Shown piece after piece: positions 39,609-42,264 of a stretch of DNA of 61,361 bases (positions are counted from its first letter, which is position 1; every line of letters starts with the position of its first letter). The position numbers and the translations under genes were made by a program. A model generated the notes under the pieces. It had not been told where the DNA came from and ran no database searches. It saw only the letters and a program-made list of their open reading frames with translations. Source of the DNA: Henriciella sp. (GTDB lineage: Bacteria; Pseudomonadota; Alphaproteobacteria; Caulobacterales; Hyphomonadaceae); NCBI GenBank assembly GCA_029238175.1, contig JAQWGO010000104.1:1-61361 (forward strand), written 5' to 3'.

Positions 39609-39633
39609 GTGCAAGAACCACCAAATAGCAGGC

Positions 39634-40086
39634 ATGAACGTACAAGAACGCGCCACAGAAATTGAAGAAGAATTCGACTTCCTGGATGACTGGGAGGTGC
39701 GATATGCTCACATCATCGATTTGGGCAAATCAAACCCGCCTCTACTTCCTGAAGAACGGAACGAAATAACAAAAGTCAGAGGATGCGCCTCTCAGGTGTG
39801 GATGGTGATCTCGCCCGAGGATGGCGACCGATTGAACATTCGCGCCGAAAGTGATGCAATGATCGTTTCGGGCTTGGTCGTCCTTCTGACGCGCCTATTC
39901 TCTGGCGCAACTCGTGCAGACATCAAAGCCTTCGACACATCGGCATTCTTTGAACGCATTGGCGTTACGGGCACATTGAGCGCTCAACGCTCCAACGGCT
40001 TGGCATCGATGCTTATGCGCATCAAACAAACCGCCTCTGCGCCCGCTCCGGCCGCTCCGGCCGCTCCGGCCGCTCCGGCCGCTTAA
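39634..40086 (+). CDS. sufE: SufE family cysteine-desulfurase partner
   Basis: SufE accepts sulfur from SufS for iron-sulfur cluster assembly. From ATG 39634 the product has 150 residues. The family core is DDWEVRYAHIIDLGK and TKVRGCASQVWM, with active-site Cys51. The frame is open upstream through a terminator hairpin, so the earlier in-frame ATG at 39523 is rejected. The C-terminus carries a Pro-Ala repeat (PAPAAPAAPAAPAA) encoded by a 9-bp tandem repeat, and the last 65 bp overlap the convergent DUF6456 gene. No other suf genes are in the window. Confidence 0.92.
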   Translation: MNVQERATEIEEEFDFLDDWEVRYAHIIDLGKSNPPLLPEERNEITKVRGCASQVWMVISPEDGDRLNIRAESDAMIVSGLVVLLTRLFSGATRADIKAFDTSAFFERIGVTGTLSAQRSNGLASMLMRIKQTASAPAPAAPAAPAAPAA

Positions 40087-40762
40087 CGTCGCAATCGTAT
40101 AGATCTGCAAGTTCAACCAGAACAATTCGCGCAGTGGTCTCGGCATGCGCAATCGGCATGGAAAATAAACGTCCCGCAGCATGCCGCGTCACCCGATCAA
40201 CGACCAATACACGCAAAAATCTCTGCTTAAATGCGCCGAGGTTTTCGCTTACGCGTGCCAGCCTCTCTGATGCGCGTGCAGCATTCTGGGTTGCGCCATA
40301 GTGATCGCGGGGCTTACCCCCCTCAATCCGGACACCAGCAGATATCGCCGACCAGTTCATCCCTGAAGCGCCGCCAGTTAAACTGCGCTCGATATCTTCA
40401 GCATAATCAATCGCGGCTTGAGCTATCCGCCGTTGCTGTCTCTCATCCTCAATCTCAGCAACCAAACGATCTAGCAGCGCCGCACCGCTGTGCTTTTGTT
40501 CGCTAACAACCAGAATAGCTCCCGCTGAGGGCGAAACAGCCGCGACCACGTCAAACCCACCACTCCATATCAGTTTTTGGGGTTCACCACTTCCCAACTG
40601 TTTGAGCTTTCCACTAACCCGAAGAGCTTCGACCTCACTCAAATCAAGCACACCGATTGCCCTCCCGCGCAGGTCATGCTGTCGCCAAACGCCCCAATCA
40701 CGCCCCCTAATCTGAGCGATGTAGCCACCATTCTGCAATGCTCTGAGCAATCGTTGCTTCAT
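40022..40762 (-). CDS. DUF6456 domain protein, coupled to DnaA-IV-like gene
   Basis: From ATG 40762 the product has 246 residues. The C-terminal half fits DUF6456: GATQNAARASERLARVSE, then LGAFKQRFLRVLVVDRVTR and a long amphipathic helix (TARIVLVELADLYD). The N-terminal half starts MKQRLLRALQNGGYIA and may be a winged-helix-like fold. The start overlaps the TGA of the DnaA-IV-like gene (ATGA), so translation is coupled. The C-terminal tail is a run of Arg-Pro-Glu repeats made by the same 9-bp repeat that encodes the SufE Pro-Ala tail. Function unknown; a role in DNA transactions is inferred from the neighbour. Confidence 0.78.
   Translation of the reverse strand: MKQRLLRALQNGGYIAQIRGRDWGVWRQHDLRGRAIGVLDLSEVEALRVSGKLKQLGSGEPQKLIWSGGFDVVAAVSPSAGAILVVSEQKHSGAALLDRLVAEIEDERQQRRIAQAAIDYAEDIERSLTGGASGMNWSAISAGVRIEGGKPRDHYGATQNAARASERLARVSENLGAFKQRFLRVLVVDRVTRHAAGRLFSMPIAHAETTARIVLVELADLYDCDVKRPERPERPERPERAQRRFV
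40045..40083. repeat. 9-bp tandem repeat inside two overlapping genes
   Basis: GCTCCGGCC is repeated four times perfectly (40045-40080), plus a partial GCT. It encodes Pro-Ala-Ala units in sufE on the plus strand and Arg-Pro-Glu units in the DUF6456 gene on the minus strand. As the unit is 9 bp, copy-number change keeps both frames. Confidence 0.95.
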
Positions 40763-41097
40763 GCCGCTAGCTTGCTGAGCGGCGCTACAGTTACGAGCCC
40801 CTGCTCCAGCGTTTCCATCCAAGCATCGAATGCTGGATCATCTCGCTTATCTTCAACCTGACGGCATGCATGCGCGACTGTTGAGCGATCTCGCCCGAAC
40901 GCCGATGCGACACGGGCCAAACTCATGCCAAAACCAACATGCGCCAGATACATTGAGACATGTCTCGCTTTAGCGATATCATGAGCGCCTCGCCCGGTTT
41001 CCAAAATATGTTCCGGTCGAATATCTAGCGCATATCCGACGAGACCTGCTGCGAGGTGCGCACCATTCCGATCGTTTCTATGCTTCAAAGCCACCAT
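40759..41097 (-). CDS. Stand-alone DnaA domain IV-like DNA-binding protein
   Basis: The 112-residue protein consists almost entirely of a DnaA C-terminal (Bac_DnaA_C) helix-turn-helix domain: ARHVSMYLAHVGFGMSLARVASAFG and then GRDRSTVAHACRQVED. The recognition helix of true DnaA reads RDH(S/T)TV; here the His that contacts the DnaA box (H434 in E. coli) is Arg. AAA+ and domain I are absent, so it cannot itself initiate replication. GGAAGG precedes the ATG. It is coupled to the DUF6456 gene by ATGA. Similar pairs occur in many alphaproteobacteria; the role is unknown. Confidence 0.85.
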   Translation of the reverse strand: MVALKHRNDRNGAHLAAGLVGYALDIRPEHILETGRGAHDIAKARHVSMYLAHVGFGMSLARVASAFGRDRSTVAHACRQVEDKRDDPAFDAWMETLEQGLVTVAPLSKLAA

Positions 41098-41192
41098 GCG
41101 ATTATCCTTCCGCCCAAGATGAACCTAACGATATCATCACGGAGCAGAGTGTAGGATTATTTTCCTATCTCACAAGTTATACCTAAATGAAA

Positions 41193-41696
41193 TCAGGCCG
41201 CTATGTTGCGAACAATTGTGGAAAATGGGTTGTCTATTTTATTTTGAAACGTTTCAACGCCGCGACTCTTGGGGAGTATTGTGTCGTGGCACAATATTAA
41301 AACACCTGTTGCCGCACTCCGCAGCGGCAGTCGAAGCCAAGCGTGCTTATCTTTGTGTCGTTCAATTAGGCCGCCAACGGGACGTCCGCGCTCCAGCGCG
41401 CTTGAAAGCCCAAGAGACCACATATCGCTCAATGACTGATCAAGGTCAGACAGGAACCTGCCGCGCATTTCTTTGCCAAGGATGGATCTAAGGCCTGAGC
41501 CAGCCAACCGAAACTTCACCTGCCCCGTTTCCGCAACCTCTACGATAGACAGCGAAGCTAGGTGGCTGCGCAGCGCGCCTGGATCAATATCCTCGCGCCG
41601 CGGCAACGCAAAACCAGATTGGCTATCATACCAATGCTTGATGAGATCGGACTGAGCACTGGTCAGGCCAGAGAAAGAATTTGACTCGAGTAACAT
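41193..41696 (-). CDS. PAS_5 domain protein
   Basis: From ATG 41696 (GGGGGTGGC upstream) the product has 167 residues. It fits the PAS_5 (PF07310) family of alphaproteobacteria: W-Y-D plus LPRREDIDPGALRSHL, then VKFRLAGSGLRSILGKEMRGRFLSD, and a C-terminal VLILCHDTILPKS strand. No output domain is fused. Some family members respond to cell-cycle or density cues, but none of that is visible here. Its promoter region holds four GANTC sites within 48 bp, two inside a perfect palindrome. Confidence 0.82.
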   Translation of the reverse strand: MLLESNSFSGLTSAQSDLIKHWYDSQSGFALPRREDIDPGALRSHLASLSIVEVAETGQVKFRLAGSGLRSILGKEMRGRFLSDLDQSLSDMWSLGLSSALERGRPVGGLIERHKDKHAWLRLPLRSAATGVLILCHDTILPKSRGVETFQNKIDNPFSTIVRNIAA

Positions 41697-41709
41697 AGCC
41701 ACCCCCGTG

Positions 41710-41759
41710 GTGATTCGACGAATCACTACTGGCTCAGTTTGATTCGGGGATCAAGAGTC
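41710..41759 (-). promoter_or_regulatory. GANTC cluster and palindrome upstream of the PAS gene
   Basis: GTGATTCG-A-CGAATCAC (41710-41726) is a perfect 17-bp palindrome containing two GANTC sites (41712, 41720). Two more lie at 41741 and 41755. About 0.2 sites are expected by chance in this length. In Caulobacter-type bacteria, CcrM methylates GANTC and GcrA reads it, giving cell-cycle-timed transcription. The palindrome lies just before the ribosome site of the PAS gene. Confidence 0.6.
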
Positions 41760-41785
41760 AACGCAGTAAAAAATTAACCAAGACT

Positions 41786-41827
41786 AACAAATACCTTCAT
41801 TCCGCATTCGAAATGAAAGTATTTGTT
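41786..41827. repeat. Large hairpin downstream of mucR
   Basis: Arms of 16 bp with one mismatch (41786-41801 against 41812-41827; AACAAATAC and GTATTTGTT at the outer ends) enclose a 10-nt loop. It begins 11 bp past the mucR stop (minus strand). A T-run follows only about 15 bp later, so it is either an atypical terminator or a structured RNA or protein site. Confidence 0.6.
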
Positions 41828-41838
41828 TCGATATCGAT

Positions 41839-42264
41839 CTATTTAGCGCCTTTGCCAAGGCCCATTTCTTTAGCAAGCTGCGACCTACGCTTAGCATAGC
41901 TTGGTGCAACCATTGGATAGTCGCACGGCAAGCCCCATTTTTCGCGGTACTCTGCCGGGGTCATATTATACTTCGAACGCAAGTGACGCTTCAACGATTT
42001 GAACTTCTTACCGTCTTCAAGACAGATCAGAAACTCATCCGTGATTGACTTCTTAACAGGTACGGCAGGCTTCAGCGCTTCACCGCCCATACTTCCAGAA
42101 TCCAATGCGACAAGCGTACCGTGGATCTCGCGTATTAGCGAAGAAAGCTCCGCACTCTGGACTGGGTTCTTGCTTACATAAGCGGCAACAATCTCTGTCG
42201 CCAGCCCGATAGCTTCTACATTGCTTAGTGATTTACTTGCATCTTCATGCGTCAATTCATTCAT
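41839..42264 (-). CDS. Ros/MucR family transcriptional regulator with degenerate zinc finger
   Basis: The 141-residue protein has the MucR signature at its C-terminus: CLEDGKKFKSLKRHL and then MTPAEYREKWGLPCDYPMVAP, with a basic tail. MucR proteins are global repressors controlling motility, envelope and cell-cycle genes in alphaproteobacteria. In classic Ros the finger reads C-x2-C with two later His; here the second Cys is Asp and only one His is in place. Zinc-independent MucR relatives that still bind DNA are known in rhizobia. GGGGTAG lies before the ATG. It is followed by a large hairpin and the PAS_5 gene. Confidence 0.9.
   Translation of the reverse strand: MNELTHEDASKSLSNVEAIGLATEIVAAYVSKNPVQSAELSSLIREIHGTLVALDSGSMGGEALKPAVPVKKSITDEFLICLEDGKKFKSLKRHLRSKYNMTPAEYREKWGLPCDYPMVAPSYAKRRSQLAKEMGLGKGAK

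Follow-up and report, generated by a model that had tools for sequence, protein, structure and literature searches.

Gene transfer agents (GTAs) of the RcGTA type have a direct activator, GafA, which in Rhodobacter capsulatus is one protein with a DnaA-like N-terminus and a sigma-like C-terminus (PMC9638019; for this and every other paper cited here, parts of the text were consulted). One survey reported gafA homologues in 196 of 208 genomes, with every GTA-containing order that it covered represented (PMC9765227). In Hyphomicrobiales the gene is mostly split and stands between an upstream mucR (or another gene of the helix-turn-helix type) and a downstream sufE (PMC9638019), and in Caulobacter the two halves are GafY and GafZ (PMC9632790). 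There, GafY together with IHF activates the GTA promoter and accessory promoters, about 18 GTA-related promoters being under its control, while for GafZ there is evidence of an antiterminator function that involves NusA, NusG and NusE (PMC11150451). Here we describe a locus on a 61,361-nucleotide stretch of Henriciella sp. DNA (contig JAQWGO010000104.1, positions 1-61,361, called the window below) in which a gene for a stand-alone DnaA domain IV is followed by a gene for a DUF6456 protein. The best explanation, which we regard as very probable, is that the two genes are gafY and gafZ, which together make up GafA in split form, and that the GTA cluster they would activate is truncated in this genome. 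The features of the locus, named in line with this assignment, are as follows:

40759-41097, minus strand: gafY, stand-alone DnaA domain IV protein of 112 amino acids (Bac_DnaA_C, 52 bits, cut-off 31.5)
40022-40762, minus strand: gafZ, divergent DUF6456 protein of 246 amino acids, intact (DUF6456, 18.5 bits, E 0.0022)
41150-41167, minus strand: palindrome TAGGAAAATAATCCTACA, candidate operator upstream of gafY (sole exact match in the window)
41193-41726, minus strand: PAS_5 (MopJ-like) gene (PAS_5, 58.8 bits)
41683-41759, minus strand: five GANTC sites around the start of the PAS_5 gene
41839-42264, minus strand: gene for a mucR-family regulator (ROS_MUCR, 163.7 bits)
39628-40086, plus strand: sufE, convergent with gafZ, its 3' end overlapping gafZ (SufE, 132.7 bits)

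Comparison of the locus with described GafYZ systems

The initial annotation had listed four adjacent minus-strand genes here, all of which lie where it had placed them; sufE and the palindrome were absent from its description. For three of the four (mucR, PAS_5 and gafY) the Pfam matches exceed their cut-offs. It had also considered the role of the pair undescribed, a view that did not hold, as a full-text literature search for DUF6456 returned two papers, each of them on GTAs, and the two genes correspond to the described GTA activators GafY and GafZ (PMC9632790, PMC11150451, PMC9638019). We read the pair as GafYZ because the same parts occur in the same order, because the published synteny of split gafA (mucR upstream, sufE downstream) is found at the window locus, because the two genes share the ATGA overlap that had been claimed for them (4 nt, 40759-40762), and because of the homologies of the two proteins. 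With Caulobacter crescentus GafY and GafZ (CCNA_01111 and CCNA_01112) the pair shares the division into N- and C-terminal halves of GafA, a GafY of the DnaA-IV type, inverted repeats upstream and, more tentatively, a sigma-like helix-turn-helix in GafZ. It differs in its truncated GTA cluster, its strongly diverged GafZ and its palindrome, which has GGA-N6-TCC and not GGAA-N4-TTCC. The split form described for Hyphomicrobiales by Sherlock and Fogg (2022) likewise has a small DnaA-like gene before the DUF6456 gene, with mucR upstream and sufE downstream, whereas the window locus has the PAS_5 gene between mucR and gafY and an mrp antiporter gene beyond mucR (the Hyphomicrobiales loci were seen in part). 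GafA of Rhodobacter capsulatus combines the corresponding DnaA-like and (predicted here) sigma-like DNA-binding parts, but in one fused protein instead of two.

There were two DnaA-IV matches in the window genome, GafY in this locus and DnaA itself on contig C18. Pfam gave no AAA+ match in the gafY product, in contrast to a DnaA replication initiator. The recognition helix of GafY reads RDRSTV, as had been noted from the sequence, and RDR-S/T-T is kept in all 14 aligned GafY proteins, the window's included. The usual reading in DnaA is RDHTTV. The window genome's own DnaA reads KKDHTTV at this position, so that its DnaA box preference might differ.

In one alignment (A3) all 23 proteins, window GafZ among them, matched DUF6456 at E<=0.01, while in another (A1) only 5 of the 11 members did so; judged by sequence, the genus branch of GafZ is divergent. 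Window GafZ was 31-42% identical to the intact homologues in the same place in its genus and 19-20% identical to two that belong to a different family within the order. Its structural model (mean pLDDT 79, pTM 0.54) has a mixed N-terminal domain, a low-confidence linker (residues about 69-92) and a helical C-terminus that aligned with sigma region 4 (e.g. 6dv9_F: Z 7.8, 74 residues aligned, root-mean-square deviation (rmsd) 2.7). Sigma region 4 entries made up most of the matches listed for this model and for that of a Maricaulis GafZ (pLDDT 83); the C-terminus of GafZ is predicted to be sigma-4-like. The top match of window GafZ was the phage Q21 antiterminator (6p18_Q: Z 8.3, 125 residues aligned, rmsd 7.1), and a second Q complex, 6jnx_P, ranked 50th (Z 5.6). 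A kinship of GafZ to Q was nevertheless not used, as neither entry was among the 50 matches listed for the Maricaulis model and as Tran and Le, in the parts of their text consulted, report no similarity between GafZ and Q antiterminators.

Upstream of gafY, the palindrome TAGGAAAATAATCCTACA has the core TAGGA-N6-TCCTA. The corresponding pattern TAGGAAAANNNTCCTACA was found exactly in 12 of 14 extended gaf loci of the genus besides the window, the exceptions (numbers with G and L label compared genomes and loci, G000 being the window's own genome) being G023, with a near match, and G006, which is without the left half. More widely, 10 of 26 named alphaproteobacterial loci had AGGA-N6-TCCT ahead of gafY, compared to 0.3% of 750 background windows. 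In Caulobacter, RogA binds a region of the gafYZ promoter that contains two GGAA-N4-TTCC inverted repeats (PMC9632790), and the window has GGAAAATAATCC, which is one base away from that pattern. RogA is our first guess for a candidate protein that binds the palindrome.

Conservation of the pair and its association with GTAs

The order of the DnaA-IV and DUF6456 genes, whose conservation the initial annotation had proposed to check, was examined in named loci. Of 80 such loci, 28 (L082-L109) were analysed and the other 52, non-alphaproteobacterial by title, were set aside. The best GafY E-values among named genomes came from a LacPavin metagenome alphaproteobacterium, Glycocaulis, Asticcacaulis, Maricaulis and Hyphomonadaceae, with records of the window's own or closely related genomes possibly absent from this set. 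Of the 28 loci, L109, with a frame of >440 aa that is probably DnaA, was dropped from all counts (n = 27) and L107, with too little upstream sequence, from the operator count given above (n = 26). Of the 27 loci, 22 had gafZ directly downstream of gafY, 20 had mucR upstream, 23 contained sufE (in L108 distant and in opposite orientation) and 8 contained a PAS_5 gene. When the gafZ start closest to the gafY stop was taken, the two genes overlapped by exactly 4 nt in 11 of the 22 cases. Within the genus, 14 loci other than the window's contained gafY in every case, mucR in 13 (not G012), a PAS gene in 13 (not G006), sufE in 13 (in G023 the contig ends first) and gafZ in 10, which was not present in G002, G008 and G017 and not covered in G023. 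In these three genomes (loci L070-L072) sufE overlaps the 3' end of gafY, leaving no room for gafZ.

We then compared the pair with the presence of GTA_TIM in a genus sample (25 genomes, G000 included), an order sample (16 genomes) and a class sample (114 genomes). In the class sample the adjacent pair was found in 6 of 14 genomes with GTA_TIM versus 5 of 100 without (Fisher P 4e-4), the window genome being one of the five. Stand-alone DnaA-IV frames of <=200 aa occurred in 6 of 14 versus 7 of 100 (P 0.0012) and DUF6456 matches of >100 bits in 9 of 14 versus 7 of 100 (P 3e-6), the tests taking no account of relatedness. Among the 14 genomes with GTA_TIM, the match was weak in G095 (33 bits) and confined to the last third in G138; G025 had a DnaA-IV match below the Pfam cut-off, and longer frames as well as G067 (93.5 bits, a DnaA-like fragment) were excluded from the count. 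Thus, the pair goes with GTAs across the class, though not strictly. In the order sample GTA_TIM was missing from 3 of 16 genomes, two of which (G032 and G037) also lacked a stand-alone DnaA-IV match.

In the genus, a stand-alone DnaA-IV frame was present in 25 of 25 genomes and GTA_TIM in 18 of 25, and only five of these 18 had a detectable gafZ, which was intact in each. The other 13 (G002, G004, G005, G008, G009, G011, G013 and G016-G021) have GTA_TIM and gafY with no detectable GafZ. A search for a relocated GafZ in G002, G008 and G017, over three 100-kb stretches that take in gafY and the GTA cluster, yielded nothing credible, the best candidate (13.9 bits, E 0.0005, a 47-aa frame) being taken as chance. 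On the sequences at hand, GafZ of the 13 genomes may have been lost, may have moved or may have diverged beyond detection.

State of the GTA cluster in the window genome and its relatives

The window genome is a draft of 181 contigs with completeness given as 95%. Its large terminase gene is intact (contig C6, 723-2039; 68% identical to that of G022) and stands next to genes that in relatives border the cluster. The terminase is followed after 286 bp by a gene (2-436) whose place in complete clusters is some 7-9 kb more distant, beside the GTA_TIM gene, and then the contig ends. The GTA cluster of this genome is truncated, because the terminase is directly followed by a gene that is normally 7-9 kb away and because capsid and GTA_TIM were not found. 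Apparently complete clusters were present in three relatives of the genus (G012, G015 and G022). The element TCCGACCG, a putative promoter element that could be linked to GafZ loading, directly precedes the terminase genes of G000, G003, G012, G015 and G022.

Six further genomes of the genus (G001, G003, G006, G014, G023 and G024) lack GTA_TIM as the window genome does. A capsid search that covered these seven and two controls found the gene in none of the seven and in both controls (G012 and G022), and a terminase search covered 16 of the 25 genus genomes, i.e. those outside G016-G024. What remains of the cluster differs from genome to genome: an intact terminase, portal and a GTA_TIM fragment in G003, the N-terminal part of terminase adjoining the C-terminal part of GTA_TIM in G006, terminase fragments with stops in G001, and terminase with one stop, portal and a protease fragment in G014. 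A gafY frame was nevertheless found in all seven, in five of them with normal length and in G006 and G023 with altered ends. gafZ was intact in G000, G001, G003 and G024 and broken in G006 and G014, while the contig of G023 stops there and showed no gafZ; in G006 the palindrome is broken too. A test of codon changes on the window genome's own gafYZ was abandoned, as silent sites were saturated against every relative compared and only G024 and G010 were usable. On the G024 branch gafZ had 26 silent and 15 replacing changes, compared to 28 and 18 in its GTA_TIM-bearing sister G010.

As a separate observation, some GTA clusters of the genus carry a gene for a ParA-like ATPase on the opposite strand between terminase and portal. 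It was seen at L057, L058, L077, L078 and L080, with 85-86% identity to the L057 copy, and is kept in three broken clusters; the gene was not found in L056.

Weighing the assignment and the proposed mechanism

Several results weigh against the identification of the pair as GafYZ. The DUF6456 match of GafZ lies below the Pfam cut-off of 26.3, although homology is retained because related proteins bridge the gap. The sigma region 4 matches of both GafZ models, at Z 6-9, are middling by the standards of the tool, and Foldseek found nothing at E<=0.001. Given the 13 genomes that have GTA_TIM and no detectable GafZ, the published need for both proteins would not simply carry over to this genus. None of the 26 named loci had the strict RogA pattern GGAA-N4-TTCC upstream of gafY, and the XRE repressors RtrA, RtrB, CdxA and CdxB and phage TgrL also bind the Caulobacter gafYZ promoter (PMC10688885; for CdxB also PMC13236601), so that RogA is a tentative candidate for the palindrome. 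Moreover, no TCCGACCG adjoins what is left of the terminase in G001 and G006, and the window genome as a whole gave no GTA_TIM match and no GTA capsid match.

If the pair works as in Caulobacter, a repressor would hold the gafYZ operon off, probably at the palindrome upstream of gafY. On relief, GafY, which would bind DNA through its DnaA-IV-type domain, would together with IHF help the sigma-70 polymerase at the GTA promoter and would act likewise at accessory promoters and at its own promoter. GafZ would then load at the GTA promoter and act as an antiterminator across the cluster. In the window genome the terminase and the putative promoter element remain, but no particles should be made, because capsid and GTA_TIM were not found; the pair would here be either a recent relic or kept for accessory targets.

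Why the pair persists without a complete cluster

A relic of recent loss, i.e. particle production gone and the regulators not yet decayed, is the most likely role of the pair in the window genome because the terminase is still intact, and we lean towards it somewhat more than against it. Recurrent loss of GTAs has been recorded, and pseudogenised clusters have been suggested to mark recent cheater lineages (PMC10883770). The different remnants in G003, G006, G001 and G014 and the broken gafZ and palindrome of G006 agree with this, whereas the persistence of gafY in seven of seven genomes (five at normal length) and of intact gafZ in four of seven does not.

It is possible, though less probable, that GafY (and GafZ) are kept after GTA loss for accessory promoters, for example in stationary phase or for the receipt of DNA. 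GafY has many GTA-related targets in Caulobacter (about 18 promoters; PMC11150451), gafYZ is intact beside a broken or missing cluster in G000, G001, G003 and G024, the adjacent pair is kept in four more GTA_TIM-less genomes of the class (G051, G117, G130 and G136), and the ratio of silent to replacing changes in gafZ of G024 (26:15) is similar to that of G010 (28:18). Against this, the loss may be recent, given that G000 and G003 still have an intact terminase; two of the seven genomes (G006 and G014) carry a broken gafZ, as decay predicts; the branch test on G024 does not date the loss; and in the four class genomes loss was read from GTA_TIM, the only cluster gene tested there. A second role stays alive through G001, which combines an intact pair with a fragmented terminase, and through the ratios in G024 and G010. 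More tentatively still, GafYZ and the operator may have been kept after repeated loss of the head-tail genes for a particle-independent role in which they run an accessory regulon. If this is true, GTA-less lineages would go on running some of the GTA programme, perhaps to act as recipients or to respond to stationary phase. We found no statement that the activators outlive their clusters in the literature on GafYZ, of which parts of the main texts were covered.

An assembly artefact, with a complete cluster in the organism that was missed in the draft, is improbable. The remnant does lie at the very end of contig C6, but the deletion junction is read through inside this contig (the 286-bp gap replaces 7-9 kb), capsid and GTA_TIM were not found elsewhere in a genome of this completeness, and a loss of this kind is also seen in G003, whose assembly is better (8 contigs, 99%).

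Even less credible is an HdaB-like role, in which the DnaA-IV protein would act on replication by stimulating initiation via regulatory inactivation of DnaA (RIDA) or by competition at DnaA boxes, with GafZ as its partner: CCNA_01111 of Caulobacter was first named hdaB and its overexpression can affect replication (PMC9632790), and the gafY frame is kept in all seven genus genomes without GTA_TIM and capsid, but the pair is associated with GTA genes across the class, G032 and G037 have neither GTA_TIM nor the stand-alone DnaA-IV match, and Gozzi et al. attribute the replication phenotypes to GTA production (PMC9632790). A replication function, as proposed in the initial annotation, has its basis in hdaB, the earlier name of the same Caulobacter gene, and Gozzi et al. 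argue against it (PMC9632790); on the class-wide association and the published data we rejected replication, including the reading of DnaA boxes, as the main role. With this the claim of an undescribed replication module falls, and the pair would instead be the switch of a domesticated prophage. The finding that deserves attention is that several relatives have the switch but not the machine. GTA-less genomes of this kind could separate the published hdaB and gafY roles, because a replication effect there could not stem from particle production.

The PAS_5 gene and other features of the locus

The PAS_5 gene, for which we take the ATG at 41696 as the likely start, had been described as having a GANTC-rich promoter, and this was borne out: the five tightest of the window's 72 GANTC sites lie within 77 bp (41683-41759), and a cluster equally tight arose in a fraction of 0.0001 of 20,000 uniform-placement trials. 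Of 14 genus loci, the window's among them, 11 had at least three sites at the start of the PAS_5 gene, whereas G008, G022 and G023 had fewer. In the window as a whole GANTC is scarce, with 72 sites compared to a shuffle mean of 253 (palindromes were possibly counted differently in the two). Such scarcity is also seen in genomes with CcrM. In Caulobacter, mopJ has a GcrA-activated promoter (GcrA/CcrM control) with methylated GANTC sites (PMC4432633). Like MopJ, the window protein consists of a single PAS domain and its promoter carries GANTC sites, but it scored 67.5 bits against the NCBIfam MopJ equivalog model, below the cut-off of 200; the comparison covered protein and promoter. From its sequence we class it as MopJ-like. 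The cell-cycle function that had been suggested for the whole module is reasonable for the PAS_5 gene, given a GANTC cluster like that of mopJ, but not for the DnaA-IV/DUF6456 pair.

Two repeats were also observed in the locus. The 3' overlap of gafZ and sufE contains a perfect 9-bp tandem repeat (4.6 copies, 40043-40083), which when translated gives repeated RPE units in GafZ and repeated alanine-proline units in SufE. An inverted repeat (41786-41827) lies in the gap between the mucR and PAS_5 genes; it has 19-nt arms that are 89% complementary and a 4-nt loop, and a similar sequence was seen by eye in relatives.

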